Positions 34,438 to 55,400 of a stretch of 64,000 bases of DNA are shown here, in pieces (the first letter of the stretch is position 1; every line of letters begins with the position of its first letter). The notes under the pieces were generated by a model. That model saw nothing but the letters and a program-made list of their open reading frames with translations. It ran no database searches and was not told the DNA's origin. Both the position numbers and the translations under genes were made by a program. Origin of the DNA: Enterovibrio norvegicus DSM 15893 (GTDB lineage Bacteria; Pseudomonadota; Gammaproteobacteria; Enterobacterales; Vibrionaceae); NCBI RefSeq assembly GCF_900115495.1, contig NZ_FOWR01000002.1:62001-126000 (forward strand), given 5' to 3'.

Positions 34438-34938
34438 TTAACAATCCGAAAAGCTTAAACGGTTATCGCTGATGGCTTTCATCACACGTTCTGCGTCCAG
34501 AATGCTCACCCATTGCATCAAATTACTGTCATGTTTGATCATGTAGGTCGTCAGTTGTTCGACAACAATGTGCTTGAGGTTTTCGCCTTCCCATGGCTTT
34601 GCAATGAAGTAATCCAAGCTGTTGTGGTTCACGGCCTGAACAGTGTCTTCTAACCCTGCTTGGCCAGTCAGAAGGATTTTTCTTGCGTTGGCACAATCGC
34701 CTTTCCCATTTAGCTCAATGAGAAAATCGACCCCTAAATCTTCAGGCATGATGTGGTCACAAAGGATGAGCGCGAGTTTGTTGCCATTGGCATTTGCTTC
34801 AGCAAGCACTTCACGTGCTTCGGCAACAGATTCTGCAGCTTCTATAATAAAGTGCTCTTCCAGTGACGCTAAGTCATGGGTCACGCTATCGAGGACATCT
34901 CTTTCATCGTCCACGCACAGGATAAGATATTTACTCAT
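34438..34938 (-). CDS. Stand-alone receiver-domain response regulator
   Basis: 166 residues. The receiver domain covers about 1-125: acidic pair in LILCVDDERDVL, phospho-acceptor Asp in LILCDHIMP, Thr in ILLTGQAG and Lys in YFIAKPWEG. The last ~40 residues (from VEQLTTYMIKHD) form a short helical tail with no DNA-binding or enzyme domain. It overlaps the end of the kinase gene by 4 bp (ATGA), so it is translated with it and is very likely its phosphorylation partner. It is a paralogue of the receiver at 43676-44149. Confidence 0.9.
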   Translation of the reverse strand: MSKYLILCVDDERDVLDSVTHDLASLEEHFIIEAAESVAEAREVLAEANANGNKLALILCDHIMPEDLGVDFLIELNGKGDCANARKILLTGQAGLEDTVQAVNHNSLDYFIAKPWEGENLKHIVVEQLTTYMIKHDSNLMQWVSILDAERVMKAISDNRLSFSDC

Positions 34939-36890
34939 TTTTCCTCCTTAGAAGCCGCAAACAGTGGGGTATAGGGTAGGGTCACTGTCATCGCGGTGAA
35001 TTCGCCAGATGACGATGCCACTTCTATTTTCCCTCCGTGATGCTCAACAATCTGTCGGCAAACCGACAATCCGATGCCAAGCCCGAAGTGTCCTTCCCGT
35101 TTTGTGGTGTAGTTCAATTCAAAGATTTTATTTTTGATGGTTTCAGGAATGCCCGAGCCGTTGTCGCGAACGGTGACTTTCACCGCTTTTCGACTCTGGT
35201 AAACGGTTTCTCGCGTTGTCACATGAATTTCGCCATCAGAATCAACGGCATCAAGCGCATTGGAAACCAGGTTCGTCCAAACTTGCTGAAGGGCGATAGG
35301 CATACATCGAACGTCTCTCAGGTCGCCATAATCTCTCACCACTTTGAGTCTTTTAAGCTGATTTTCAAACATCACTAAGGTGTCTTCTATGCCCTCATGA
35401 AGATCGACATCTCGCATGGTTTCATCATCTTGTCGGGCATAGGTTTTTAAGCTTTTCACCATGTCTGCAATGCGTTGTGCGCAAACACTGGTGGAGCGCA
35501 ATAAGCTACCCGCTTGATAGAACATGTCCCACTGCATGAGTGTTTTTTCAAATCCTGTATCCAAGGTGTTCATCCACGTTCGAATGTCTGTCGGATTATC
35601 AAACCCCATGTTTACCGCTTTCCTTGCGAGTGTTCTATCGCCAATCATAGGCTCGATGGCTTTTGCTCTTTGGCGTGCATCGGCGGTCGACATGGGACGA
35701 GAAAGCAGTGCCTCAGCCATGATTTGGTTGGCTTGTTCTTTGGCTGTGTCATTAAGCTCGGTATTGATGAGTTCACCAATACTGTCTTTCAGCGTATCGC
35801 TGTTTCTTAGAATCGCAGAAACGGGGTTATTGAGTTCATGGGCAACACCCGCAACCAACTGCCCTAGCATGGCCATTTTTTCTCTTTCGATAAGCTGTTT
35901 ATGTGCCAGTTCGAGAGATTTTAGCGTTTGCTGCAGCTTCACTTCAGTGGTGATACTGCGCTTGAGGCGTCGGTTAAAGTGTCGTAACAAATAACTTGTA
36001 AACAATGGCAGCAAGTCGTTTCTTGCTTGCATCACCTTGCCAAACAAGGCGCGGTTTAGCTTGATGACGTTGGTGGGTTGAAGGGTTATCCCCGTAGAAA
36101 AAGAAACATCGCCCGTCACAAATGACATGCCACCAATCAGGCTACCTTTTCCGAGTCTCGCCACTTCATGAGAAGCGCCGGTTTCGTCTCGTTTCAATAA
36201 TGCCACTTCGCCGTCTACAACAAACCAGAGGAAGCTGTTTGGCTGGCCTTCATGGGTCAGTAAATGGTCTTCGCTGTAACTTCTGAAGGCGTGGTTTTCG
36301 TCGTTATGATCAAAGTAATCAGTCAGTTCATTGAAAAGCTGTTGAGCCAGTTCATCATCCGACGTTCGAATGGCAGACTCGATAAACCCGTGGCGATAGC
36401 TGGCGAGACGATTCTCGATATGTGCATCAAGTAATCGACGTTGGTCGAGGACATTGCAAAACTTAAGCAAATCGTCGGCATTGTGCTTTAGCACGTAGTG
36501 GGTTAACTCCTTACGGGCCGTCATGATCATCTGATCTGGCTCCCAAGGCTTGGTCATGCAGTAGTTAAGTCGCCCTTCATTGACGGCCTGCATGATCACT
36601 TCAATTTGCGCTTGGTCGTTGAGCAGGATTGTTCGCGCGCCAGCAGAGGCGGGTTGATTGTCGATATTGATCAGAAGGTCAACGCCGTTATCTTCGCCAA
36701 GGTCGTGGTCGCAAATGAATAGCGCGACTTGGCGGCCTTGTTGATGCAGTTCACTGAGTGTGACAGTCGCGGAAGAAACGTTATCAATACAGACGATGTC
36801 GAAGGAGGAGGAAAAAGCGGCGAGCTCTCGTTCTAGTTGCGCCAAAATCTCTGCGTCATCATCAAGACAAAGAATGACATATGGGTGCAT
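34935..36890 (-). CDS. Hybrid sensor kinase: receiver - cNMP-binding - histidine kinase
   Basis: 651 residues. Domains in order: a receiver (about 1-125; Asp in FICDHDLGED and Lys in MTKPWEP); a cyclic-nucleotide-binding-like domain (about 200-300; WFVVDGEVALLKRDETG, GKGSLIGGMSFVTGDVS); a short coiled coil (about 315-340); and DHp with His351 in GVAHELNNPVSAI. An unusual insertion of about 100 residues follows before the second DHp helix (KSLKTYARQDD). The ATPase closes the protein (N-box WTNLVSNALDAV, DNGSGIPETI, FGLGIGLSVCRQI). There is no membrane segment, so it is a soluble kinase. The receiver's conserved Thr is replaced by Asn (ILLNDQA). I start at 36890 because MHPYVILCLDD aligns with the start of the receiver paralogue; the frame opens at 36911. 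Confidence 0.9.
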   Translation of the reverse strand: MHPYVILCLDDDAEILAQLERELAAFSSSFDIVCIDNVSSATVTLSELHQQGRQVALFICDHDLGEDNGVDLLINIDNQPASAGARTILLNDQAQIEVIMQAVNEGRLNYCMTKPWEPDQMIMTARKELTHYVLKHNADDLLKFCNVLDQRRLLDAHIENRLASYRHGFIESAIRTSDDELAQQLFNELTDYFDHNDENHAFRSYSEDHLLTHEGQPNSFLWFVVDGEVALLKRDETGASHEVARLGKGSLIGGMSFVTGDVSFSTGITLQPTNVIKLNRALFGKVMQARNDLLPLFTSYLLRHFNRRLKRSITTEVKLQQTLKSLELAHKQLIEREKMAMLGQLVAGVAHELNNPVSAILRNSDTLKDSIGELINTELNDTAKEQANQIMAEALLSRPMSTADARQRAKAIEPMIGDRTLARKAVNMGFDNPTDIRTWMNTLDTGFEKTLMQWDMFYQAGSLLRSTSVCAQRIADMVKSLKTYARQDDETMRDVDLHEGIEDTLVMFENQLKRLKVVRDYGDLRDVRCMPIALQQVWTNLVSNALDAVDSDGEIHVTTRETVYQSRKAVKVTVRDNGSGIPETIKNKIFELNYTTKREGHFGLGIGLSVCRQIVEHHGGKIEVASSSGEFTAMTVTLPYTPLFAASKEEK

Positions 36891-37080
36891 GTGCTTACCA
36901 AATACCTGCATTTTTTATAAGTGTATAGGTTTGTTCGTCTATAAGCTGAGAACAAGACTGCAAACTGACACATACTGTGAGAAAACATTAACGCTTCAGA
37001 TTAAAACCTTATTAAGCCATGGGGTTAAGTCCTTTGTTGGTTTACACTTGAGGCCGTTAATTTTTTCTGTTGGAGCAATC

Positions 37081-38397
37081 ATGATTTTTGGGAAGTACGC
37101 AGCCATTGGTGGTGCCGTGGCTTTAGTTGTCCTTTGGCCTCTCGCATCTGGACATGTGGGCCAGTCAATTTACGACCGCGAAGTTGAACAATCACAATCG
37201 CCATATGCTGTTATTACTAGTGAATCTTATGATCGTGGATATTTGTCTTCAGACGTTGTCACCAAGGTATCTTTGGTAGGCTCTGCCAAAGAGCAACTTG
37301 AGTTAGATGGCATTCCAACCAGCTATGTGCTGAACAGCAAAGTGTCTCATGGCTTCCTTAGCATCAGTACGGATTCAGTACTTGAAATGACACCTGAACT
37401 GAAAGTGCTGACAGACAAGCTTTGGCCGAACGGTGAGTCGCCATTTACCTTCCATTCGGAAACGGGCATCTCTGGTAAAACGGATTACACCCTGTCGATG
37501 GCTGCAATCGATGCGAATGAAGAGGGCTTGAAAATCACGAGCACGCCGTTTGTTGTTGATGGGTCAATGGACAAGGCGGGTGTGATTTCTTTCACCATGA
37601 ACATGGATTCATTCGGCTTTGAATCTGAATATGGAGAAAATGCGAAAGTCACCAATATGACGGGTTCAGGCCAAGGTGAGTTAATCGACGATATTTGGGT
37701 GGGTAGCCAGAAAGTTAACTTTGGTCGTTTTGACATTGATAACCAAGATGGCCTGCCAGCGACATTGACTAACTTGAGTATCGAAGTGAAAAACCTCCTG
37801 TCTTCTGCATCAGGTGGCGACGTGAAAAGTGCTGACGCTGAGGATCTGCGTTTCAACAATGAAAACCTGATCTCACTGGAGAAGTTTGAAGTAAAAGACG
37901 AGCTTACTTTGAACAACCTGAAATTGGGCATGAACTTCGATGCGCTTGATTATACTGCCATGACGACGTTAGCAACGGTTGCTGATGCAATGGGTGAAGA
38001 GCCTTCTCCAGAAGAGATGGAAGAAATGATCAAAGCATTGGATGCCTTGGTCGAGAAAGGGCTGAGTGCGAAACTGAACCCACTAGAGGTTGATACACCA
38101 GAAGGCCAGATTGATGCGAACTTGGATCTGCAAGTGGCTTCAGGTCTTACTAGCGTGTCGCAGAACTTCCAAGCACTTCCAAGCAAAATCAGTGGTGAAT
38201 TGAATCTAAGCGCACCGGCTGCGTATGTTAATGGCCTGCCAGAGTTAACAAACATGGCAGAAAACCTAGCGCAATATGGATTCGTTTCTCAGAGTGAAAA
38301 CATGGTGAAACTGAATGCAAAAATTGAAGGCGACCAATTGGTGTCTCCTACAGGTCAAAAAATCCCAGTGGGTTTGCTGATGATGCTAATGATGTAA
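37081..38397 (+). CDS. DUF945 (YdgA-like) periplasmic/inner-membrane protein
   Basis: 438 residues. A single N-terminal hydrophobic segment (AAIGGAVALVVLWPLASG) anchors a large exported domain. The segment VGQSIYDREVEQSQSPYAVI and long beta-rich stretches with repeated S/T/D content (for example SFTMNMDSFGFESEYGE) match the YdgA/DUF945 family, whose role is unknown. A C-terminal GQKIPVGLLMMLMM is typical. GGAG precedes ATG 37081. The reading frame is open back to 36760, over the divergent kinase gene, but that part is a shadow. Confidence 0.83.
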   Translation: MIFGKYAAIGGAVALVVLWPLASGHVGQSIYDREVEQSQSPYAVITSESYDRGYLSSDVVTKVSLVGSAKEQLELDGIPTSYVLNSKVSHGFLSISTDSVLEMTPELKVLTDKLWPNGESPFTFHSETGISGKTDYTLSMAAIDANEEGLKITSTPFVVDGSMDKAGVISFTMNMDSFGFESEYGENAKVTNMTGSGQGELIDDIWVGSQKVNFGRFDIDNQDGLPATLTNLSIEVKNLLSSASGGDVKSADAEDLRFNNENLISLEKFEVKDELTLNNLKLGMNFDALDYTAMTTLATVADAMGEEPSPEEMEEMIKALDALVEKGLSAKLNPLEVDTPEGQIDANLDLQVASGLTSVSQNFQALPSKISGELNLSAPAAYVNGLPELTNMAENLAQYGFVSQSENMVKLNAKIEGDQLVSPTGQKIPVGLLMMLMM

Positions 38398-38417
38398 TGC
38401 AACTGAGTGATTACTAG

Positions 38418-38456
38418 AAAAAGCCCGCGCGAAACGCTTTCGTGCGGGCTTTTTTG
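38418..38456 (+). terminator. Intrinsic terminator after the DUF945 gene
   Basis: GCCCGCGCGAAA and TTTCGTGCGGGC form a long stem with one wobble pair, flanked by A5 and T6. Confidence 0.9.
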
Positions 38457-38626
38457 TGGGAAAAACGCCCGAGTTAAACAAATGTTGAAAATTCACTCTA
38501 GTCTTTGTGACAAAACGTAAAAATAAGCTCAATAGGGCTAGTAATTTCGCCAACTTAGTCGACACTGAATAGTAAGACAGAGATTTAATCCCTGTTTCTA
38601 CATTCAGTCCAACACTAGGGGGATGC

Positions 38627-39043
38627 ATGGAATCGATAAAAGTAAAAGATTACATGAACAAAAGGCCTGTCACATTTAAGGCCTCCATGACTCTGTCGAT
38701 TGCATTAGAAAAAATGCTCAAGGCTGATCAAACAGGTGGCCCAGTTGTCGATGATAACCATCATGTTGTCGGTTTTTTGTCTGAGCAAGATATGATCCAC
38801 AAACTACTCAAAGTTGGGTACTACTGCCAAGATACAAACACGGTTGATGATTGTATGCACAAGGCCGTTGAAACAGTGACGCCTGACGACAGCATTATTC
38901 GATTGGCAGAGCAAATGCTGCCAGGAAAACCCAAAGTGTATCCTGTTGTTGAACATGGTCGCCTCGTCGGCATCATGTCTCGTCGCGATATTCTTAAAGC
39001 CATCGCAACACAAATCGACGATTGTTTTCACCACCCAGTGTAA
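38627..39043 (+). CDS. Two-CBS-domain protein
   Basis: 138 residues made only of a CBS pair: first domain about 5-65 (VKDYMNKRPVTFKASMTL, GGPVVDDNHHVVGFLSEQDM), second about 75-130 (VDDCMHKAVETVTPDDSI, YPVVEHGRLVGIMSRRDIL). CBS pairs bind adenosine nucleotides and act as energy sensors for partner proteins. No partner is encoded beside it. GGGGG lies upstream of the ATG. Confidence 0.9.
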   Translation: MESIKVKDYMNKRPVTFKASMTLSIALEKMLKADQTGGPVVDDNHHVVGFLSEQDMIHKLLKVGYYCQDTNTVDDCMHKAVETVTPDDSIIRLAEQMLPGKPKVYPVVEHGRLVGIMSRRDILKAIATQIDDCFHHPV

Positions 39044-39071
39044 CGTCCTTCGTGTTTATAACGGCAAAATG

Positions 39072-39100
39072 AAAAAGGGTGCATTACGCACCTTTTTCTT
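39072..39100 (+). terminator. Intrinsic terminator after the CBS gene
   Basis: GGTGC-ATTAC-GCACC with A5 before and T5 after, about 30 bp beyond the stop. Confidence 0.8.
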
Positions 39101-39268
39101 ATCCTGATTATATCTACTGAAAACACTGCATTCGGTGGAATCACGAAAAACTCATACTATTCCTTTCTTCGTTGTTTTCTCATTAATTTGATAGACTGCG
39201 GCTCAAAAATTTTGTGCCGCTAAAAGCAAATACGGCACAGTAATGTGTTAATTCGACCGGAAGTCATC

Positions 39269-40735
39269 ATGTCTAACCAGCAACAAGCAAAGTTTGTCAA
39301 TGGATCAATTATGCGCCACATCACCGTGATGTCTACTTCAGGTGCTGTGGGGTTGATGGCGTTGTTTCTGGTTGACCTCGTCGACATGTTCTTCATCAGC
39401 TTGTTGGGTCAAGTAGAGCTTGCTGCTGCGATTGGCTTTGCAGGTACTATCGTCTTTTTCTCTACATCCGTTTCAATCGGTACGTCAATTGCCACTGGCG
39501 CGCTGGTAAGCAGAGCGCTGGGTGCAGGAAAAATGGACGACGCGAGAAAGATTGTGGCGAGCGTGATGATATTTGCTGCGCTTGTTAGTGTGGTGACAGT
39601 TGGCTTGGTCCTTTTCTTTCTCGACGATATTTTAGGGTTGATTGGTGCAACGGGGGAAACCGCTGTTAAGGCCAAAGAATACCTCGTTATTATCTTGCCG
39701 AGTGCCCCGCTAATGGCAATGGGTATGTGCGGCGGTGCTGCCTTGCGTGGTGTGGGTGATGCTAAACGCTCGATGTCAGCCACGTTAGCGGGGGGCGCGG
39801 CCAATGCCGTTCTCGATCCTATCTTTATCTTTGGTTTATCGATGGGGATTGAGGGTGCGGCGATTGCGTCTGTTATGTCACGCGTTGTTCTGTTTGGTGT
39901 ATCTTATCATGCGGTGCATCACAAGCATGATTTGATCGCGAGGCCGTCACTCACGGATTTATCCGAGCACTTTCGTGCCATTACCCAGATTGCGGTGCCT
40001 GCCATCGTGACAAACACTGCAACGCCATTCGGCAATGCTATCGTGACCGCACAAATCGCGAAGTTTGGTGCAGATTACGTGGCTGGTTATGCCGTGATTG
40101 GACGTTTGCTCCCGGTGTCATTCGCACTCATCTTTTCTCTTTCAGGGGCTGTTGGGCCGATTCTCGGACAGAATTTTGGGGCAGGGCGCTTTGATCGTGT
40201 TCGCTTAACCTTGTCCGATTCAGTAAAATTTGTCTCTGCCTATTGCGTGCTGATTGCCGTGATCCTTTTCTTCTCTCAAAGCTTCATTACTACTGCATTT
40301 AGCTTGTCAGGAAATGCAGCGTCTATGGTGAATCTGTTCTGTACCTTTATCGCCATTAGCTTCATTTTCAATGGTATCTTGTTTGTTTCCAATGCTGCAT
40401 TTAATAACCTCAATCGTCCAACGTGGTCGACGTTACTGAATGTCGGAAAAGCGACACTAGGTACTATTCCCTTCGTTTATGTTGGAGGCGAGTTGGCGGG
40501 TGCAGAAGGTGTGTTGATCGGTCAGGCGCTCGGCTCTGTCTTCTTTGGCGTGGCAGGTTATGTGTTGGTAAACCGTTTGATTAAACAGCTTTCAGACGAG
40601 AATGAAACAATTGAAGACACTGTGGCGATTGAGCCAGTTGTACCTGTGGCCGCATTCAGCAGTTGCCGTGAAGTGATGGCGGAAGACGGTGAAGAGCTAC
40701 AAGACAAAGATGGAAAGTGTAAACCGTCAGCCTAA
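39269..40735 (+). CDS. MATE-family efflux transporter
   Basis: 488 residues, twelve predicted membrane segments in two homologous halves: residues about 15-235 (VDLVDMFFISLLGQVELAAA, SVSIGTSIATGALVSRALGAG) and 240-450 (AVIGRLLPVSFALIFSLSGA, GPILGQNFGAGRFDRVR). MATE pumps expel cationic drugs or metabolites in exchange for Na+ or H+. The C-terminal ~45 residues are hydrophilic and acidic. I start at 39269 (GGAAG upstream); the frame opens at 39245. It may be unrelated to the next operon. Confidence 0.88.
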   Translation: MSNQQQAKFVNGSIMRHITVMSTSGAVGLMALFLVDLVDMFFISLLGQVELAAAIGFAGTIVFFSTSVSIGTSIATGALVSRALGAGKMDDARKIVASVMIFAALVSVVTVGLVLFFLDDILGLIGATGETAVKAKEYLVIILPSAPLMAMGMCGGAALRGVGDAKRSMSATLAGGAANAVLDPIFIFGLSMGIEGAAIASVMSRVVLFGVSYHAVHHKHDLIARPSLTDLSEHFRAITQIAVPAIVTNTATPFGNAIVTAQIAKFGADYVAGYAVIGRLLPVSFALIFSLSGAVGPILGQNFGAGRFDRVRLTLSDSVKFVSAYCVLIAVILFFSQSFITTAFSLSGNAASMVNLFCTFIAISFIFNGILFVSNAAFNNLNRPTWSTLLNVGKATLGTIPFVYVGGELAGAEGVLIGQALGSVFFGVAGYVLVNRLIKQLSDENETIEDTVAIEPVVPVAAFSSCREVMAEDGEELQDKDGKCKPSA

Positions 40736-40744
40736 TGCTGACGG
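40724..40744 (+). other. Hairpin spanning the MATE stop codon
   Basis: CCGTCAGC-CTAAT-GCTGACGG, an 8-bp perfect stem whose loop holds the TAA stop. No T-run follows, so it may be an mRNA 3'-end stabiliser. Confidence 0.45.
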
Positions 40745-40904
40745 ATCCCTACCATGGAAAAAGCAGAAACCCCGCGTTTGAAAAGTGAACGTATCCACCC
40801 AATTTATTGATCTAATTCAGTAAAGCCTGAGCGTATTCCGCGCAAAATGTCCCCGTTGCCCACTCACTGTGGGTGTTTTAGCTTTTAAGGGACTACAAGC
40901 GATT

Positions 40905-42320
40905 ATGCGCATTCAGGCGAAATATCTACTTCCACTTCTTATTCCGTTGTTGGTGTTAGTTCTGCCAGCTTCGGCTTTTCCTTTTGAATCCATGACAGTG
41001 ATGCAGCAGCGTGCCATCGCGTTGTTTTTGTTGGCTGCGTTGTGCTGGGTGTTAGAGCCCATTCCTATCTATGCAACCTCCGTCGTGGTCATTGTTTTAG
41101 AACTGCTTTTCTTATCCGACAAAGGGCTGATTTGGTTCAGACGTGATGCAGGCTCGCCAGAGTTCGGCGGTTTATTGAGTTACAGCGATATCATGGCAAC
41201 TTTTGCCAGCCCGATCATTATGCTGTTTCTTGGTGGCTTTTTCCTTGCAATGGCAGCAACCAAATACCGTTTAGATATCAACCTTGCACGCGTGTTGCTC
41301 AAACCCTTTGGCGCAAAGCCTCAGTGGGTCATGGCGGGCTTAATGCTTATCACTGCCATTTTCTCTATGTTCATGTCGAACACGGCAACCACTGCCATGA
41401 TGCTCGCGATTCTTACGCCCATTTTGGTGCTGTTTAAGCCGAATGACCCAGGCAAGATCGCGTTTGCACTGTCTATACCTGTTGCCGCAAACATTGGTGG
41501 TATTGGCACCCCAATCGGTACACCACCCAATGCGATTGCGTTGAAATACCTGAGTGGCGAAAACATGATCACCTTTGGTGAGTGGATGGCATTTGGTGTG
41601 CCGTTTGTGGCCATAATGCTGGTGCTTGCATGGGCGTTACTGTGTGCGTTGTTCCCTTCAACAGAAACCAACATGTCTCTGGACATTAAAGGAAAATTCT
41701 TAAAAACACCGAAGGCCATCACTGTGTATGTCACGTTCGCGGTGACTGTGGGGCTTTGGCTCATGGGTTCAAGCCATGGCATGAATTCTTACACCGTGGC
41801 CTTGATTCCCGTCGCTGTTTTCTCGATGACGGGCATCATCAACAAAGAAGATCTTAAAAAGATTTCATGGGACGTGCTTTGGTTGGTGTCAGGTGGTTTT
41901 GCATTGGGCTTGGCCTTGGACAGAACCGGACTTGCGAAATTATTGGTTAACAGCATTCCGTTTGAAAACTTTGCGCCAGAAATCGTGCTAGTTGGTGCAG
42001 CAGCGCTGTGTTTGCTCATGGCAAACTTTATGTCTCATACCGCTACCGCTAACTTGCTGATGCCAATTATGGCAGCGCTCGGTGTGTCAATGACCTCGTT
42101 GACGCCGTTGGGCGGCGAGATGACGCTGATCCTGGTGGTGACGTTTGCAGCATCGTTGGGCATGTCTTTACCAATCAGCACACCGCCGAACGCCTTGGCT
42201 CACGCAACGGGCCATGTGAACAGTAATCAGATGGCGAAAGTGGGTGTCATTCTTGGCGTGGGTGGTGTGGCACTTAGCTTTGTGATGATTTGGATCTTGA
42301 GGTTGGTGAACTTCCTATGA
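40905..42320 (+). CDS. SLC13/DASS-family sodium:anion symporter
   Basis: 471 residues, about eleven to twelve membrane segments. The two inverted halves each carry the SNT-type motif: MSNTATTAMM with GGIGTPIGTPPNAIAL, and MSHTATANLLM with SLPISTPPNALAHATG. SLC13 proteins import di- or tricarboxylates or sulphate with Na+; the substrate cannot be read. Start 40905 is chosen by similarity (AAGGGA 12 nt upstream); an upstream GTG at 40869 is less likely. It is the first gene of an operon with a cNMP-binding protein, a kinase and a receiver, overlapping the next gene by 4 bp (ATGA). Confidence 0.9.
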   Translation: MRIQAKYLLPLLIPLLVLVLPASAFPFESMTVMQQRAIALFLLAALCWVLEPIPIYATSVVVIVLELLFLSDKGLIWFRRDAGSPEFGGLLSYSDIMATFASPIIMLFLGGFFLAMAATKYRLDINLARVLLKPFGAKPQWVMAGLMLITAIFSMFMSNTATTAMMLAILTPILVLFKPNDPGKIAFALSIPVAANIGGIGTPIGTPPNAIALKYLSGENMITFGEWMAFGVPFVAIMLVLAWALLCALFPSTETNMSLDIKGKFLKTPKAITVYVTFAVTVGLWLMGSSHGMNSYTVALIPVAVFSMTGIINKEDLKKISWDVLWLVSGGFALGLALDRTGLAKLLVNSIPFENFAPEIVLVGAAALCLLMANFMSHTATANLLMPIMAALGVSMTSLTPLGGEMTLILVVTFAASLGMSLPISTPPNALAHATGHVNSNQMAKVGVILGVGGVALSFVMIWILRLVNFL

Positions 42321-42805
42321 GTTCAACGACAGCACAATGCCCAATCTCTGAGCATGAACCCGTGCTGGCTCGGATCATTCGAGACTACTTTTGCTCGCCT
42401 AACCGACAATGTCAGGTCTTGGCGGGCATTGCTGTGCTTGAACAATCGGGGCACAACGACCGCTTGTATTACCTGAAAAGTGGCAGCATGGCGGCCTACT
42501 ATCAAGAAACAGATAGCAGCCATCCCGTGCTGGTATTTCAAGTTGAAGCGGGCATGTTCTTTGGGGTGCACAGCTTTTTCTCTGGCACCTTCAAAGCCTC
42601 GACAACCGTGATTGCGCAGACGGATTGTGAACTGGCGTGGATTGATATTTCAACGAAAGCCGTCAATGAAGACACTTATGGTTCATTGAGTGCGCAGTTC
42701 ATGCCTGTGATGGTGAGTGAACTTTCAAAACGCCAACAGCGTGCGAGCCTAAAAGCAGTCGCGAATGCGCAGTCACAACAAAACTCTTTCGTGCTGAGCA
42801 GATGA
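42317..42805 (+). CDS. Single-domain cyclic-nucleotide-binding-like protein
   Basis: 162 residues. About 15-120 form a cNMP-binding beta-barrel fold (GHNDRLYYLKSGSMAAYYQE, EAGMFFGVHSFFSGTFKAST). The canonical phosphate-binding cassette (GELALL...RxAT type) is not clearly present; FFGVHSFFSGTFKAST stands in its place, so nucleotide binding is unproven. No HTH follows, so it is not a CRP-type regulator. The C-terminal helix (ELSKRQQRASLKAVANAQ) corresponds to the linker before DHp in the fused paralogue at 34935-36890. It overlaps the transporter and the kinase by 4 bp each. Confidence 0.8.
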   Translation: MSSTTAQCPISEHEPVLARIIRDYFCSPNRQCQVLAGIAVLEQSGHNDRLYYLKSGSMAAYYQETDSSHPVLVFQVEAGMFFGVHSFFSGTFKASTTVIAQTDCELAWIDISTKAVNEDTYGSLSAQFMPVMVSELSKRQQRASLKAVANAQSQQNSFVLSR

Positions 42806-43674
42806 CGACCTTGGGTCAATTGGCCGCAGGCATTGCGCATGAGCTTAACAATGCGGTCGGCGTGATTGATAGCAAAGCGCAACGCTTGCAGGACACGCTG
42901 TCTTCATGGCTTGCCACGTATCAGCCGGACGCACAGCCTTTTTTCGATGTGGGTTTGTCTCAAGGGCAGGGTGTGTCTTCCAGTGAAGCACGTTCACGGG
43001 GAAGAACGTTCGAGAAGCAGCATGGCTTATCGAGCAATAAAGCGCGTCTGCTTGCCCGCGCATTGCCGCAAGATGCGGACATAAACGTGTGGTTGGCTGA
43101 CCTTGATAATGCCTTGCATTTTTGGGAGCAAGGCAGAGAACTGCACGATCTGCAAATTGCTGCCCAACACGCCGTTTCTATTGTGCGTTCTGTTAAGCAA
43201 TTGGGCGGCGCAGACCATGAGCGAAACGAGCATGTTGATATCAATGACACGCTGCAAAAATCGCTCTCCTTGCTTCAAGGTGCCATTCGCGGCGTGACCG
43301 TGACGCAAACCTTTGGTGACCTTCCTTTGCTGGTGGGCAGCAGCACGGAGTTCGCACAGATTTGGGTCAACCTCATCAAAAATGCCACTGAAGCATTGGC
43401 CGACACGCCATCACCAAACATTGATATTTACACCTTCACGTCTAAGGGCTGGCTGATTGTCACCATTGCCAATAATGGCCCTGTTATTGAAGAGAGTGTA
43501 CGCCGCAAAATCTTTCAACCTAATTTCACCACCCGTAAAGGTGGGTTGTCTTTTGGCCTGGGTCTTGGATTGTCAATCGTCCAACGACTGGTTAATGAAT
43601 ATAACGGCTCTATCGCCGTCAAAAGTGACGCGGACATAACGACGTTTCGAGTCCGATTACCGCTAGGGGAATAA
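42802..43674 (+). CDS. Histidine kinase lacking its own sensor domain
   Basis: 290 residues. It starts directly at the DHp helix: MTTLGQLAAGIAHELNNAVG with the phospho-accepting His13. An insertion of about 100 residues (about 30-125; VSSSEARSRGRTFEKQHGLSS, WLADLDNALHFWEQG) separates the two DHp helices and matches that in the 34935-36890 kinase. The ATPase domain has IWVNLIKNATEAL, ANNGPVIEES and SFGLGLGLSIVQRL. The usual Asp of the G1 box (DNG) is replaced by Asn in IANNG, which could weaken ATP binding. No membrane segment. It overlaps the cNMP gene by ATGA and is followed one base later by the receiver gene. Confidence 0.88.
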   Translation: MTTLGQLAAGIAHELNNAVGVIDSKAQRLQDTLSSWLATYQPDAQPFFDVGLSQGQGVSSSEARSRGRTFEKQHGLSSNKARLLARALPQDADINVWLADLDNALHFWEQGRELHDLQIAAQHAVSIVRSVKQLGGADHERNEHVDINDTLQKSLSLLQGAIRGVTVTQTFGDLPLLVGSSTEFAQIWVNLIKNATEALADTPSPNIDIYTFTSKGWLIVTIANNGPVIEESVRRKIFQPNFTTRKGGLSFGLGLGLSIVQRLVNEYNGSIAVKSDADITTFRVRLPLGE

Positions 43675-43675
43675 C

Positions 43676-44149
43676 ATGGAAAAAATCAACATTATCTGCG
43701 TTGACGATCAGCGTGAAGTGCTTAGCGCTGTGCTTAAGGATTTAGCGCCTCTTGCCGACATTTTTCATATTGAAGATTGTGAATCTGCAGATGAAGCCCT
43801 TGAACTTATCGACGAGTTAGATGCGGAAGGCGAGCACGTTGCCCTCATCATTTCCGACCATGTCATGCCGGGAAAAACGGGGGTGGAATTGCTTACTGAA
43901 GTGTCGGCAGATACACGTTTTAGTCACACGCGTAAAATGCTTCTGACAGGGCAGGCAACCCATGCCGATACCATTGAAGCCATCAACAGTGCCTGCATTG
44001 ACCGTTATTTCGAAAAGCCTTGGAAGGCTGAATTACTGTGTGATGCTGCGAAAGCGTTAGTGACACAGTACATTTTTGACTTGGGCATTGATTATCGTGA
44101 TTACCAAGATGCGCTGGATACCACTGTGGTGTTTGCACGTTTGAAGTAA
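43676..44149 (+). CDS. Stand-alone receiver-domain response regulator
   Basis: 157 residues. Receiver about 1-122: INIICVDDQREVL, phospho-Asp in LIISDHVMPGKTG, Thr in MLLTGQATH, Lys in YFEKPWKAE. A short helical tail follows, with no output domain. Start ATG lies one base after the kinase stop. It is the likely phosphorylation target of the kinase at 42802 and a paralogue of the receiver at 34438. Whether it acts by protein contact (for instance on the transporter) is unknown. Confidence 0.9.
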   Translation: MEKINIICVDDQREVLSAVLKDLAPLADIFHIEDCESADEALELIDELDAEGEHVALIISDHVMPGKTGVELLTEVSADTRFSHTRKMLLTGQATHADTIEAINSACIDRYFEKPWKAELLCDAAKALVTQYIFDLGIDYRDYQDALDTTVVFARLK

Positions 44150-44159
44150 CGCATTGTTG

Positions 44160-44200
44160 AAAAGAGAAAAGAGAAAAGAGAAAAGAGAAAAGAGAAAAGG
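44160..44200. repeat. Heptanucleotide tandem repeat (AAAAGAG)
   Basis: Five full copies of AAAAGAG and a partial sixth run without interruption, starting 10 bp after the receiver stop and about 65 bp before the zntA-type promoter. Such simple repeats can change length by slippage. Confidence 0.9.
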
Positions 44201-49313: not shown

Positions 49314-49406
49314 ATGACACGCATCTCCTTGATGGTTAGACTACGTGCACATCATCAAGGACATACGACTGCAATTCGACATGCGAAGCACTGGGGAGAG
49401 TTATGA
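49314..49406 (+). CDS. 30-residue leader ORF overlapping the adhesin start
   Basis: ATG 49314 follows a strong GGGGAG Shine-Dalgarno (about 9 nt). The frame runs 30 codons to TGA 49404-49406, which overlaps the adhesin ATG 49403 as ATGA. The product is basic and His-rich: it starts MTRISLMVRLRAHHQGH and ends RHAKHWGEL, with five His, four Arg and one Lys. No family is recognised and there is no signal peptide. The arrangement suggests translational coupling, so the ORF could set how much of the very large protein is made. It is also possible that it is a short chance ORF, but the good ribosome binding site and exact overlap argue against that. Confidence 0.6.
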   Translation: MTRISLMVRLRAHHQGHTTAIRHAKHWGEL

Positions 49407-52400
49407 TTGGTCACGAGTTTGATTCCAAATTAGACGTTATCGAGGTTAGAGGACAGGCGTTTCTAGTCACGAATGATGCGAGAATCATTGGCCTCGAAAA
49501 AGGCATGCACATCGCGCCGAATCAAGTACTTTTGACAAACAACGACAGTGATGTCGTGGTTGCCCTAGATGGCAACGTCTTTCAAATCGATAGCCAATGC
49601 GCTTCCTGTTTGGTTCCTGCAACCGCGGGTCAAGATGCTTCTATTGCGACAACGCCAATTCAAGCCTATTTCAATGGTGAGGTATTGGATTCAGATTTGC
49701 CTTTGAATCTTGACGTTGCCCAGCTCCAAGAATTGATTTTACAAGGTGTCGACCCCACCGAAATCTTTGAAGAAGCAGCAGCTGGTGAAGCCGCTGAAGG
49801 TTCTTCGAATGCAGGTTTCGTCGTTATTGAGTACCTTAATGCCTCCACACTTGCTGAAGCCGGGTTCGATACCACAGGACCGGCAGGTGATAGCAATATC
49901 ATTCCAGACTTCTTTGGCGACGATGACAATCGCAACGATGGCGGTGATACCACACCGCCTGTTCCGCCTCCTCATGTTGATGGTGCTGGTGGCCAGCGCA
50001 TTTCGCTTTCCGTCGATGAAGGTGATCTCGATAACTCACCTTACGGCGCACCGACCACGGCGGCGTTTACGATTGAAGCTGGCACTGAAGCGTTAAATCC
50101 CAGAACGCTACAAATTGCGCCGAGTGCTTTAACACAATTTGAGACGGAATTGAGCACGATCACTTCAGGTGGTGAACCTGTCGTGTTCACACGTTCAAGC
50201 ACGGCGTCTGGTGATACGGGTACGTTTACGCTGGTGGGGACGGTTGATGGCGAAGTGGTCATCACTTTGACGGTGACGGCAACACAAGATGGCGACGATT
50301 TGTCTGTCAGTGCCACGCTCGATCAATCTGCACCGCTGGACCATTTGAGTGGTTCAGGCACATACATTGAAATCAACGGTGATGCGATCACCATTGATTT
50401 GCCGTTACAAGTGGCTGATAGCTCTGGCGACTTACTTCAACAACCTGCGCAAATTCAGTTAATCAGCAACGATGGTGCCGCCCCTATTGTGGGTACCGCT
50501 AGCGTTGAGATAGAAGAGCCGCAAAACAACCCCGTCAGCGAGAAGCGCGAATCCACGACTGAAGGCATTGATCTTGGCAGCGACAATATCACCAAAATTG
50601 AGTTTGACAATACACAAGCCAAGCTCGCTTTTGATGGTGTCACCAGCCATAACCAAGAAACCTGGGTGGACACTTCTGTTGATGGTGTGGTGACCCTACG
50701 CGTCGTTGGCTCGGACGAGGCCGTACTTGAGATTTCGCTAAAAGTACCGTCTGCGTCGGGTGAAACCGCCGCGTATGAAGTGACACAATTTTTGCCTATC
50801 GACCAAGATGAAGATGTTGTCGGTGATGGCAACTTTGAACAGTCTACATTTACACTGCCGTTCAAGGTTTACGATAACGACGGCGATGTGAGTAATGATT
50901 CCGAGGTGACGTTCACCATTAAAGATGGTGTACCGACAGCGGGAGGCGAGCGCCTGAATGCTGCCGGTGATCCACAAGACTTCTTGGCTATCGATGAATC
51001 GGGTACTAGCCAAGATACCTCTGAACGAAATTCAGCGACAGGTTCATTTGATATTGAAGCGGCGTCGGACAAGTTGATGCCAGACACGTTGAGCATTGAA
51101 GATTTTGCATCGCTTCAAACAGAGTTGATGGAGCTTCAGAACAATGCGGGTGAAAATGTTGATGACGTAAGCTTGGTGGAGAGTACTGATGCAAGTGGTA
51201 ATCGTGTTCTGACGATCACCGCATCCATCGGTGGCGAACCGGCGTTGGAGTTTGTGTTCACTGCTACACAAGCTGCGGGCGCTATCGATGTCACGGTAGA
51301 AACGGCATTCCATCAATATACACCGCTTATTCATCCGCAAGACCCAGATGCAGCGCAGCAAAGTGGCAATGTCACCGCGGATGACAAGACCATTACCATC
51401 AAAATTCCGGTACAAATCCAAGACTCTGATGGCAATAGCCTCATAAATCCTGACTCGACCTTTGACCCAAGCGCACCTGATCATCAAGGCCGTGTGGTGA
51501 CATTCGAAGTGACGGACAATGCGACCGAGACGATTGATGAGACCACGGTTGATGCAATAACGGTTGATGAAAGTGGCATTGATGGCAGTGCGACCAGTCA
51601 CCAAGGCTCGCAAACCAGCGGCACTTTGAACATTGATGATACCAACAACAGTGGTAGCCCAAACAACTTGAATGTGCATGATGGCTCGGGAGACACGTTA
51701 GCGGATTTCAATTTTGAAACCGACTACGTGACGTACCCTGATGGCCAGCCTGTCGAGTCGGGCGGCTTTCCTGTTCGTATGGAACAACGCCCTGAAGGCG
51801 ATACCTTCCCGAAAACCTATTACGGCGTTGCAGATGATAATTCTGGTGACCTACGTGATGTATATAAAGTGGTCCTCGCGTCAGATGGCACTTTCTCCTT
51901 TGAATTATTAGCAGGGCTTGATCACGCAGAAGGTGATGGTATTAACACCTTAACCTTTAATCTGACCGCTTTCGCTACCGATGCTGATGGTGACGTCGCA
52001 TCAAAAATCACTGTGCCGATCACTGTTACCGATGACATTCCGCGTACAGAAGGCAATTTGTCTATCGACATTGATGATCTCGATACCGGCGCTATCTCGG
52101 TCAATGTCTTTGAAATCACCGACCCATCACAAAACCCTGGCATTGAAGACCTACAAGGGGCAGATAGCAACACCCTCATTACCCGTATCTTTAATGGTGA
52201 AGAGTGGGTGGATGTGTCAACGCGTCGTGAATCTGAAATTGATATCTTCTCAGAAGCGGATCCAAGCATCCAAATCGGTACCGTCGTGATTGACCCAAGG
52301 ACCGATCCTGTTGGCCAAATCACGTTTAACTTAACCGATGAAGAGTTCACTGGGTCGATTGATCAGTCCCTTCGCTATGAAGTCACGGATGGCGATGGTG

Positions 52401-55400
52401 ACAAAGTAGAAGGCAGTATCTCGCTGGTCATTGATGTCGATGCGGCGGGTGGACAAAAAGTGTCACTTACCGTCAACGAAGGTGATTTGGATGACGCGAC
52501 CTACAGTGAAGCATCAAGTTCAACCTTCGCGATTGAAGCGGGTACAGAACGTTTGGTGCCAGGGTCTCTGCAAATCGCACCAAGTGCACTTGCCTTGTTT
52601 GAGTCAGAACTGGCGACGATTACTGCAGGTGGCGAGCCCGTTGTCTTTTCGCACAGCGTGGAAGGTGACGACGTCGGCACCTTTACCTTGGTCGGTAAAG
52701 TGGGTGATGAGGTCGTTGTGACGCTCACCGTCGTTGCCGAGCAAGACGGCAATAGTTTATCCGTCACGGCTACATTAGATCAGACGGCACCGCTGGACCA
52801 TAGCTCGGGCACAGGCACTTACGTCAACATTGATGGTGACCAGCTAACCATCAACTTGCCGTTGCAAGTTGAGGATACGACGGGCGAATTGATGTTGGCG
52901 CCGGCCGAAATCACCATGGTCAGTAACGATGGCGCGGCACCAATCATTGAAGATGTGGCGGTTGAACTGCAAGAACCACAGAATAACGCAACGGATCCTG
53001 TTGTTTCTTCTACGTCCGACGGTGTTGATTTGGGCAGTGATGAAATCAGCAAAATAGAGTTTGATGCAACGGCGGCTGAAAGCGCGTTTGACGGCATCAC
53101 AAGCAATGGTGAAGAAACCTATGTCGATACGTCTGTCGAGGGCGTTATCACACTGCGTGTGACGGGCACTGATGAAGCGGTACTCGAAATCGCAATGAAA
53201 GCGCCAGAATCAAGCGGCGATGATGTTTCTTATGAAGTGAAACAGTTCCTTCCCTTCGACCAGAATGAAGACGTTAGCGGCGATGGCAATTTCGAGCAAT
53301 CGACCTTTAACCTGCCGTTTACTGTCTTCGACGCGGATGGCGACGAGAGCAACAGCGCGGAAGTGAGCATTACCATCAAAGATGGTGTGCCAACAACCGG
53401 TGGTGAGCAACTGGATGGCAGCGGAAATCCTGTCGACATACTTGAGCTCAGTGAGAATGTCACAACCCAAGATGCATCAGAATCTAATTCTGCAACAGGC
53501 TCGTTCGATTTAATTGCTACATCTGACAAATTGGTGCCTGATACATTAAGTATTGAAGATTTTGCGTCATTGCAGACCGAGTTGATGGAGCTGCAAAATA
53601 ACGAGGGCGAGAACGTCGATAGCGTGACGCTGGTTGAAAGTGTCGACGGCGACGGTAATCGCGTGTTGACCGTTGCCGCATCTGTTGGCGGGGAGACAGT
53701 GCTTGAGTTTGTCTTTACTGCAACGCAAGCCGCAGATTCTCTGGATGTCACGGTAGAGACCGCGTTCCATCAATACGCGCCATTGAATCATCCACAAGAT
53801 CCAAGCACTGCGCAGCAAGAAGGTGGTGTGACGGCAAATGGTGACGTTATTTCGATCAAAATTCCTGTCCAAATCCTCGATTCTGATGGCAACAGTCTGA
53901 TCAACCCTGACAGCACCTACGACCCAAGTGCGCCAGATACACAAGGACGCATCGTCACATTTGAAATTAAAGATGATCAAGTCGATACGGCAGAAGAAAG
54001 CACCGCCGATACCCTCACTGTGAATGAAAACAGCATTGATGGCAGTGCGACGAGCCACCAAGGCTCTCAAGCCAGCGGTAACTTGAACATTGATGACACC
54101 AACGACAGTGGCAATCCTAACAACCTCGATACCAACGATGGTGTGGGCGACAACTTGAAGGATTTCAATTTTGAAACCGACTACATCACATACCCTGACG
54201 GTCAGCCGCTGTTGTCAGGAGGTTTTCCTGTCCGGATGGAACTGCGCCCTGAAGGCGATACGTTCCCGAAAACCTATTATGGCGTTGCCAGTGATGAGAA
54301 CGGTGATGATCGTGATGTTTATTCATTAGTATTGGAGTCTGATGGCTCATTTTCTTTTGAGTTGCTGGCAGGGCTCGATCACGCAGAAGGCGATGGGATC
54401 AATACCCTGAGCTTCAACCTGACGGCATTCGCGACTGACGCTGATGGGGACGTTGTTTCTCAAGTCACCGTTCCAATCACAGTGACCGATGATGTGCCGC
54501 GCACAGAAGGTAACCTCGCCATTGCGATTGATGATCTCGACGGCACACCAGTGACCGTTTCACTGGATGTGTTTGAGATCACTGACCCATCACAAAACTC
54601 TGGCATTGAAGACCTACAAGGGGCGGATAGCGTAACGTTAATCACGCGTTTGTTTAACGGTATTGAATGGGTGGATGTGTCTACGCGCAGTGACTCTGAG
54701 ATAGACATTTACTCAGAAACGGATAACGCTATCAAGATTGGTACGGTGGACATTGACCCTCGTACAAGCCCTATAGGGCAAATCACCTTCACGTCAACGG
54801 ACGCCAATGTGATTGGTTCCGTTGATCAAAACATCCTTTTTGAAGTGACCGATGCAGATGGTGACGTGGTTGAAGGCAGTATTGCGCTGACCATCGAAGA
54901 CCAAATACCCACCATTGTTGTGAACCCATCGACATCGGGAGAGCAGCAAGAAATCAGCGGCGTGGAAGACCAAGGTCAAGACAACACCGATACCGAAGCC
55001 GATGGCGTGACGCCTGCGAATGGCGTTGCGATCAACATGCAATTGAGTGTGGGTGATAACGATCTGGGTGAAGCGCTCGAAGAGAACGGCAGTTTAGTAC
55101 TCAACGGTGAAGTGACCCTCGCAACACGTGATGCTGCTGGTGACATTGGCGGGACGTTCTACTTTAACGGCACGGCGATTACACCTGATGGTGATGGAAA
55201 CATTGTGTTTGATAGCACCATGTTTGAAGCCGTTGATGGTTCAGACCCTATTACGTTTAACCTCGTGGGCATTACCTTTATTCCTGACCCTGATTACTCG
55301 TCATATGACGACACTGATCTGATTGAGTTTGATGTCGAGCTTGAGGTCAATGGCCACGACCCTGTCTTTACGTCATCACCGATGCAAATCAATATTGACG

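Follow-up and report, generated by a model that had tools for sequence, protein, structure and literature searches.

A 64,000-nucleotide stretch of the genome of Enterovibrio norvegicus DSM 15893 (contig NZ_FOWR01000002.1, positions 62,001 to 126,000; hereafter the window, in which all positions below are counted) encodes two sensor histidine kinases, kinase 1 (K1) and kinase 2 (K2), followed by the lone receivers REC1 and REC2, respectively. We consider it probable that K1 and K2 represent widespread cytoplasmic kinases with a folded four-helix insertion at the tip of the dimerization and histidine phosphotransfer (DHp) domain, and that these kinases phosphorylate a receiver of one clade, here called the KPW clade after its Lys-Pro-Trp motif, which is fused to a thioredoxin reductase (TrxR)-like enzyme in many phyla and stands alone in the window. 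As judged from alignments and profile searches, the insertion marks a large and widely distributed kinase group for which no name was found. No part of a sensor kinase is more constrained than the DHp hairpin, which holds the dimer together, carries the phospho-accepting histidine and selects the receiver.

The insertion in the DHp domains of K1 and K2

The helix of the phospho-accepting histidine and the N, G1, F and G2 boxes are conserved in both K1 and K2, which identifies them as sensor histidine kinases of the HisKA/HATPase type. Both kinases and both lone receivers lie where an earlier reading of this DNA, made from the sequence alone, had placed them, although the start of K1 has to be moved: K1 had been given as 34935-36890, whereas its open reading frame (ORF) is open from 36911, and 36890 is a second ATG, seven codons in. 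In K1, the REC, cyclic nucleotide monophosphate (cNMP)-binding, HisKA and HATPase domains were all detected with Pfam; the cNMP fold and the kinase had been recognized before, and the N-terminal receiver (residues 13-130) is additional to them. The tested N, G1 and F residues of the K1 HATPase are present in 31/31 alignment rows. In the kinase half of K2, HATPase is detected and HisKA stays below the Pfam cut-off (19.8 versus 26.9 bits), and the Asp of the G1 box is replaced by Asn, likewise in 19 of the 21 K2 rows. Kinases with Asn at this position can still be active.

The distance from the phospho-accepting histidine to the N box is 185 residues in K1 and 173 in K2. Three ordinary kinases encoded in this genome have distances of 104, 105 and 108 residues, so that about 77-81 residues are added in K1 and 65-69 in K2. 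The long insertion claimed by the sequence-only reading is therefore present, although its size had been overestimated at about 100 residues. The two insertions are alike, as had been proposed: their local alignment score is 50, a value that none of 2000 shuffles reaches (mean 23.8, s.d. 4.1, maximum 47). The motifs picked out by eye are also conserved, since the Ser and Arg of the STADAR/SSSEAR motif are kept in 31/31 K1 rows and in all 21 K2 rows with letters there, and the Trp of the insertion is kept in 26/31 and 18/21 rows, respectively.

Structure prediction did not return an ordinary DHp. AlphaFold2 models, all of them monomers, were made for K1 residues 195-658 (with 61 other rows) and for a relative from Calothrix, L108 (with 49 other rows). 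In K1, the linker and DHp helix 1 form a single long helix, which is followed by four short helices (about residues 388-450) and then by DHp helix 2, in place of the two-helix hairpin with a short loop. The mean pLDDT (predicted local distance difference test score) of this model is 82.9, with 74-93 in ten-residue blocks of the insertion, and its predicted template modelling score (pTM) is 0.56, at which the arrangement of the K1 domains is not trusted. The L108 model (mean pLDDT 89.8, pTM 0.78) likewise has four extra helices, at residues 197-264, with block pLDDT of 93-98. On these models, the insertion is predicted to form four short helices where the DHp hairpin has its tip.

The searches found no family in Pfam or NCBIfam that covers the inserted stretch, in line with the sequence-only reading, which knew of no named family with it. 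Insertion-only Pfam scans of 33 relatives matched 19 families with one member each (best E 0.0025). In the PDB, matches to a 33-row profile of relatives cover positions 1-33 and 146-233 of 234 and none lies on the insertion; an insertion-only profile of the 33 relatives gave no match better than E 0.33, and the single insertions of K1 and L108 gave best E values of 0.71 and 0.3. One PDB chain, 7z8n, spans the insertion region of a 13-row profile, but it is missed by the insertion-only searches and was taken to align through a different domain. The best 50 Foldseek matches of the K1 model are kinases without such an insertion in their descriptions, LvrB (PDB 8vc9) being the first.

Distribution of insertion kinases

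The census of close relatives covered 80 genomes, the source genome included, and found K1 in 38 of them (at least 45% identity) and K2 in 22 (at least 40% identity). Beyond these, the K1 DHp region was searched against plasmid proteins and hit 192 records; in 29 the match covers at least 80% of the query. Seven of these 29, from Paraburkholderia, Kovacikia, Nocardia, Deinococcus, Streptomyces, Nostoc and Caballeronia, were taken further; the K1 profile detects the kinase in all seven, and the five kinases that were aligned with K1 and K2 (not those of Streptomyces and Caballeronia) each have the insertion at the same site. A wider group was collected by scanning named genomes with a 13-sequence profile, and the 80 loci described here are the best 80 of 547 confirmed stretches, a sample skewed to Actinomycetota, in which some ORFs are cut by contig ends. 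Judged by record titles, eight phyla are represented (Actinomycetota, Chloroflexota, Cyanobacteriota, Acidobacteriota, Gemmatimonadota, Bacteroidota, Desulfuromonas, and Pseudomonadota, alpha and beta), with one further record labelled only Deltaproteobacteria. The histidine to N-box spacing is 199-209 in 76 of the 77 measurable members and 180 in the remaining one. At E 0.001, the 80 ORFs contain HATPase_c (80), cNMP_binding (73), HisKA (7), REC (2) and PAS (1). Since HisKA is matched in only 7/80, and the annotated plasmid copies are labelled merely "ATP-binding protein" (5/5), surveys based on the HisKA model may miss such systems.

Closer to the source organism, the K1 profile matched 17 of 274 gammaproteobacterial genomes at E 1e-15 or better, and near-full-length matches came from seven, including the source genome. 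The front ends of nine gammaproteobacterial insertion kinases are diverse (HAMP in two, phosphonate-binding in one, REC plus PAS in two, REC in one, PAS in one and none recognized in two), and a cNMP domain was found in none of these nine. The phosphonate-binding-type domain, of periplasmic kind, belongs to L077 (G255:C201), in which the kinase is followed by a lone KPW receiver of 155 aa, another sensor on the same core. A sodium:solute symporter read by eye at the front end of L081 was dropped, as Pfam finds no front-end domain there. Related PAS kinases are encoded beside regulators of the NosR family (L240-L264), and their histidine to N-box distance of 138-144 residues in nine measured sequences corresponds to about 30-40 added residues; four such kinases were also compared by alignment.

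In a tree of DHp helix 2 plus the catalytic and ATP-binding (CA) domain, in which 20 of the 80 named kinases were sampled, K1 and K2 fall together with the cNMP group, the HEINTP kinases and the NosR-linked kinases, apart from three ordinary kinases (support 0.724). K1 and K2 each form a clade of their own and are not sisters, with low support in the middle of the tree. The description of the two kinases as paralogous thus holds only in a broad sense; a sister relation is not borne out by this part outside the insertion.

The receivers and their enzyme-fused relatives

Every catalytic residue tested is retained in the lone receivers. In REC1, the Asp pair, the phospho-Asp, the Thr and Lys-Pro-Trp are kept in 14/14 rows; in REC2, the catalytic residues are kept in 13/13 rows, together with the Lys and Trp of the motif (Lys-x-Trp). 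Among 20 chosen stretches from relatives, REC1 adjoins K1 in 14/14 K1 loci, and the order DASS transporter, K2, REC2 is found in 13/13 K2 loci, REC2 following K2 in every one. The receiver at the N-terminus of K1 is different: the phospho-Asp is present in K1 itself and in 22/31 rows, and the switch position is Thr in 1/31, Ser in 6/31 and Asn in 19/31, K1 itself having Asn. Its residue pattern marks this domain as eroding or partly degenerate.

A TrxR-like ORF lies within the flanks of 73 of the 80 named loci, and in 70 of these 73 (70/80 of all) it contains a receiver, none being detected in L107, L110 and L170. Three such enzymes scanned with Pfam each have REC plus Pyr_redox_2, and the two scanned with NCBIfam have a thioredoxin reductase match below the cut-off. 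Among the REC-TrxR enzymes (L072, L074, L104-L183), the usual CxxC(D/N/E)G motif is found in 0/69 long ORFs and any CxxC in six, so that they are unlikely to be ordinary thioredoxin reductases. By eye, a seemingly glutaredoxin-like stretch can be seen between REC and the flavoenzyme. In 34/80 loci (e.g., L114, L118, L128, L157, L158), the kinase/REC-TrxR pair has a gene for a UBP-type zinc finger nearby. REC1 and REC2 are not fused to a TrxR-like enzyme, each having a single Pfam domain over the cut-off.

The relationship between these receivers was examined with profiles and a tree. Scored with a profile built from 25 lone receivers, the 71 TrxR receivers reach a median of 79.1 bits, against a median of 18.9 and a maximum of 40.2 for 37 control domains from 30 loci, which are the best 30 of 88 Pfam receiver matches in the source genome, so that the control set leans to canonical receivers. 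Of the TrxR receivers, 70/71 outscore every control. The reverse comparison, with a TrxR-receiver profile, gives medians of 80.7 for the lone receivers and 19.5 for the controls. The NosR receivers have a median of 72.1 bits on the lone-receiver profile, with 10/10 above the controls. The KPW motif is present in REC1 (14/14) and in TrxR (69/71) and NosR (10/10) receivers, and in 0/37 controls. In a midpoint-rooted tree with 25 of the 71 TrxR receivers, the receiver of K1 itself groups with the lone receivers in one clade (0.986), which joins the TrxR receivers with a support of 0.891, the NosR receivers lying outside. Ten gammaproteobacterial insertion-kinase loci were also inspected: a KPW-class receiver adjoins the kinase in 7/10 (two of them from near-identical genomes), four of these seven receivers being lone ORFs of 132-155 aa, and in three no such receiver was found in the stretch examined.

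We use the name "insertion-kinase / KPW-receiver group", coined in this analysis, for kinases of this kind. K1 and K2 have two of its features, a homologous insertion at the DHp tip and a neighbouring receiver of the KPW clade; the third, phosphotransfer from kinase to receiver, is suggested by gene order. The sequence-only reading had proposed that the insertion may define an undescribed signalling subfamily, and had named homologues that always carry a cNMP domain and a lone receiver as what would support it. The proposal agrees with the lack of a Pfam or NCBIfam family, a PDB chain or a literature account in our searches; the constant association does not hold, because the cNMP domain is found in 73/80 named kinases and in 0/9 gammaproteobacterial ones, and the receiver is fused to TrxR in 70/80 loci. 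The literature search, which was weighted away from subscription papers and is thus a weak negative, found no account of the insertion or of the kinase/REC-TrxR pair, and an insertion of this type is not mentioned in the available portions of PMC13022988, PMC4618731 and PMC1592074.

Input domain and gene structure of K2

The cNMP domain and the split appearance of K2 each invite a reading of their own. Both K1 and the K2 front half score above the cut-off of Pfam's cNMP_binding model, from which one might suppose that the kinases sense cAMP or cGMP. We regard this as very improbable, because the positions taken to correspond to the Glu and Arg that contact the nucleotide phosphate in the CRP pocket are changed: Glu by Met in 31/31 and Arg by Ser in 30/31 K1 sequences, Glu by Val and Arg by Ser in 20/21 K2 sequences each, and a crude pattern of the CRP phosphate pocket is matched by only 6/80 wider relatives. 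The earlier assignment of a cNMP-like domain to both kinases is thus one of fold only, and with the nucleotide-contact residues gone the label "cNMP-linked" is misleading; the best-supported reading is an input through a cNMP-fold domain that would sense something other than a cyclic nucleotide. In K2 this domain looks like a gene of its own, and its ORF and that of the kinase half overlap as ATGA at 42802-42805, an arrangement that would suit a split kinase made as two proteins from the overlapping start and stop. This is hardly credible, since the cNMP part and the kinase form one ORF of 443-512 aa in 20 of the 22 genomes that have K2, the cNMP region is alignable in 20/20 of these single-ORF relatives, and the kinase half alone would be without the coiled linker. 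Only in the source genome and in G029, where there are several stops, is K2 not a single ORF, and a DNA alignment with a relative whose K2 is 98% identical shows that the two differ in linker length immediately before the K2 ATG, in a way that breaks the frame. What looks like a separate cNMP gene (42290-42805) is therefore the first half of K2, which in this genome has been divided by a shift of frame; the break may be a real lesion or a sequencing error.

Proposed mechanism and alternatives

The insertion, its modelled fold, its spread, the receiver clade and the gene order are taken from sequence or model, and from them we infer the phosphotransfer, the pairing, the target and the role of the insertion. 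A signal would reach the cNMP-fold domain, which is without a nucleotide-phosphate pocket (in K1 it may also reach the partly degenerate receiver), and the coiled linker would then turn DHp helix 1. The histidine would be phosphorylated and, as gene order suggests, the phosphate would be handed to REC1 or REC2. Lacking an output domain, these receivers presumably work through contact with other proteins, and the DASS transporter of the same operon is the probable target of REC2. As to the insertion, its most likely role is to lengthen the DHp dimer at its lower end and lock it there, and it would thereby set the access of the catalytic domain and of the receiver to the histidine.

Two other views of the insertion were weighed. 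The extra residues might be a loop under little constraint in an otherwise ordinary kinase, with no function of their own, as their variable length (NosR-linked kinases have about 30-40 of them, K2 and K1 have 65-81 and the wider group about 91-105) and the lack of any invariant column in the insertion-only alignment of the 33 wider relatives would allow. This is quite improbable, given that the motif positions are conserved across K1 and K2 relatives, that Glu, Trp, Leu and Gly each reach at least 90% in the 33 wider relatives, that the length is near-constant inside the wider group, that the helical model of L108 is confident, and that the insertions can be aligned from Vibrio-type kinases to those of Actinomycetota, Cyanobacteriota and Deinococcota. 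The insertion could also serve in docking, as a clamp that picks out the KPW receiver and keeps away the cell's remaining receivers, of which this genome has 86 matches at E 1e-8. Receivers bind DHp near the hairpin tip in known complexes, the insertion lies at that tip, HK853-RR468 is among the Foldseek matches, and the insertion kinase and a KPW-class receiver are neighbours in 7/10, 14/14, 13/13 and 70/80 loci of the four sets. NosR-linked kinases, however, adjoin such receivers with a much shorter insertion, and in a covariation test of 115 pairs of kinase and receiver (effective number 42, a sample too small for a decision) the insertion supplies only 0.63-0.76 of its expected share of the strongest couplings, whereas DHp helix 2 supplies 1.5-1.9. 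Docking is weakly disfavoured by this under-representation and appears unlikely; locking of the dimer or gating of the catalytic domain is our first choice, as an interpretation only.

Several observations weigh against the proposed explanation. The models are monomers, that of K1 with the pTM given above; the covariation test, weak as it is, gives no sign that the insertion touches the receiver. NosR-linked kinases with only about 30-40 added residues indicate that the insertion varies in length and that the loop lengths form a series. One of the 71 TrxR receivers scores below zero on the lone-receiver profile, and a receiver profile that includes the NosR receivers matches 126/229 gammaproteobacterial genomes, so that the class is common without insertion kinases and an exclusive pairing of KPW-type receivers with them is ruled out. 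The long-insertion profile matched 11/398 genomes of the source phylum, all in the source order, with few candidates per genome scored. Finally, the DASS transporter is also present in 15 genomes without K2 (two of the 15 matches being partial), which rules out strict co-dependence of transporter and kinase.

A broader reading, which we hold tentatively, is that of a phylum-spanning kinase class, mostly missed by the HisKA model and annotated as "ATP-binding protein", that has a regulatory helical domain built into DHp and works with a receiver clade dedicated to it. The direct targets of these receivers would be enzymes or transporters and not DNA: in many phyla redox flavoenzymes, in the window a DASS anion transporter. 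A folded domain at the DHp tip in eight phyla and on a Deinococcus plasmid raises the question of how far the core can be rebuilt, and whether the tip sets cis or trans phosphorylation or the choice of receiver. The link to receiver-TrxR enzymes suggests direct control of a redox enzyme by phosphorylation, for which no study was found in the literature searched.

Genomic neighbourhood

The coordinates of the two systems are given in Table 1. The nearest PDB relative of the DASS transporter is VcINDY. Judged by coordinates, the transporter gene lies ahead of K2, in the same orientation, in 22/22 K2 genomes, all of which carry it at a minimum of 67% identity; K2 thus goes with the transporter, and the transporter can persist without K2. 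Both kinases occur in 14 genomes, within 12 kb of each other and divergent in 8 (the source genome included) and apart in 6. Between the close pairs, DUF945 and CBS genes are found in 8/8 and a MATE gene in 5/8.

Table 1. Positions of the kinases, receivers and associated genes in the window.
Feature	Position	Strand	Basis
Kinase 1 (K1), REC - cNMP fold - DHp with insertion - HATPase, 658 aa	34935..36911	(-)	Pfam
K1 N-terminal receiver, residues 13-130	36522..36875	(-)	Pfam
K1 cNMP-fold domain, residues 210-296	36024..36284	(-)	Pfam
K1 linker and DHp helix 1, about residues 324-382, phospho-acceptor His358	35766..35942	(-)	Boundaries from AlphaFold2 model
K1 insertion, about residues 383-453, four short helices between the DHp helices	35553..35765	(-)	Model; boundaries approximate
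K1 DHp helix 2, about residues 454-493	35433..35552	(-)	AlphaFold2 model
K1 HATPase (CA) domain, residues 538-648	34968..35300	(-)	Pfam
Lone receiver REC1, 166 aa, overlapping the end of K1	34438..34938	(-)	Single REC over Pfam cut-off
CBS-pair protein between the K1 and K2 systems, syntenic in several genera	38627..39043	(+)	Pfam; synteny
DASS-family sodium:anion transporter directly before K2	40869..42320	(+)	TIGR00785 over cut-off
K2 front half, cNMP fold, in a frame different from the kinase half here	42290..42805	(+)	Pfam; fused in 20 relatives
K2 kinase half, DHp with insertion - HATPase, His13	42802..43674	(+)	Pfam and alignment
K2 insertion, about residues 38-96 of the kinase half	42913..43089	(+)	Boundaries by alignment with K1
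Lone receiver REC2, 157 aa, directly after K2	43676..44149	(+)	Single REC over Pfam cut-off

Three further observations were made. In one relative (G029:C69, L190), the DASS transporter, K2 and REC2 are all fragmentary and K1 and REC1 are intact, which indicates decay of the cassette as a unit. A perfect 7-base tandem repeat (GAAAAGA, 5.9 copies, 44159-44199), which could vary in length, lies between REC2 and a metal-transporting ATPase gene. An ORF of 3869 aa (49403-61012, plus strand) has RTX calcium-binding repeats near its C-terminus as its only Pfam match at E 1e-4, and it looks like a giant secreted RTX protein, perhaps an adhesin.

Comparison with known systems

For DHp helix 2 and CA, kinases of the ZraS, AtoS and ThkA type are among the best relatives in NCBIfam and the PDB. 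They share the catalytic domain and the DHp helices with K1 and K2, but the profile matches cover only the parts flanking the insertion. LvrB, a Rec-controlled kinase, has an N-terminal REC joined through a helix to DHp-CA, as in K1, and is, according to PMC13269768, a REC-DHp-CA protein without a cNMP domain, unlike K1. The DHp of LvrB (PDB 8vc9) aligns only on either side of the insertion, and the K1 receiver differs from the LvrB type in having Asn at the switch Thr and in that the phospho-Asp is missing in some K1 relatives.

The NosR family (NCBIfam NF053512, REC-EAL) has a receiver of the same class as REC1 and REC2, and its neighbouring PAS kinase has a lengthened DHp loop. REC1 and REC2, which are without EAL, score 78.8 and 81.5 bits on this model through the REC part only, against a cut-off of 400, and the NosR-linked PAS kinases have the shorter insertion described above.

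A further parallel is found in the REC-TrxR enzymes, an architecture of REC and thioredoxin reductase that is mentioned in PMC5847659. The receivers in the window are alone, with no flavoenzyme, and have DASS, CBS and MATE genes as neighbours. The receiver of the REC-TrxR enzymes is the nearest relative of REC1 and REC2 among those compared, and in most of the 80 loci the kinase encoded beside these enzymes combines the cNMP fold with the DHp insertion.

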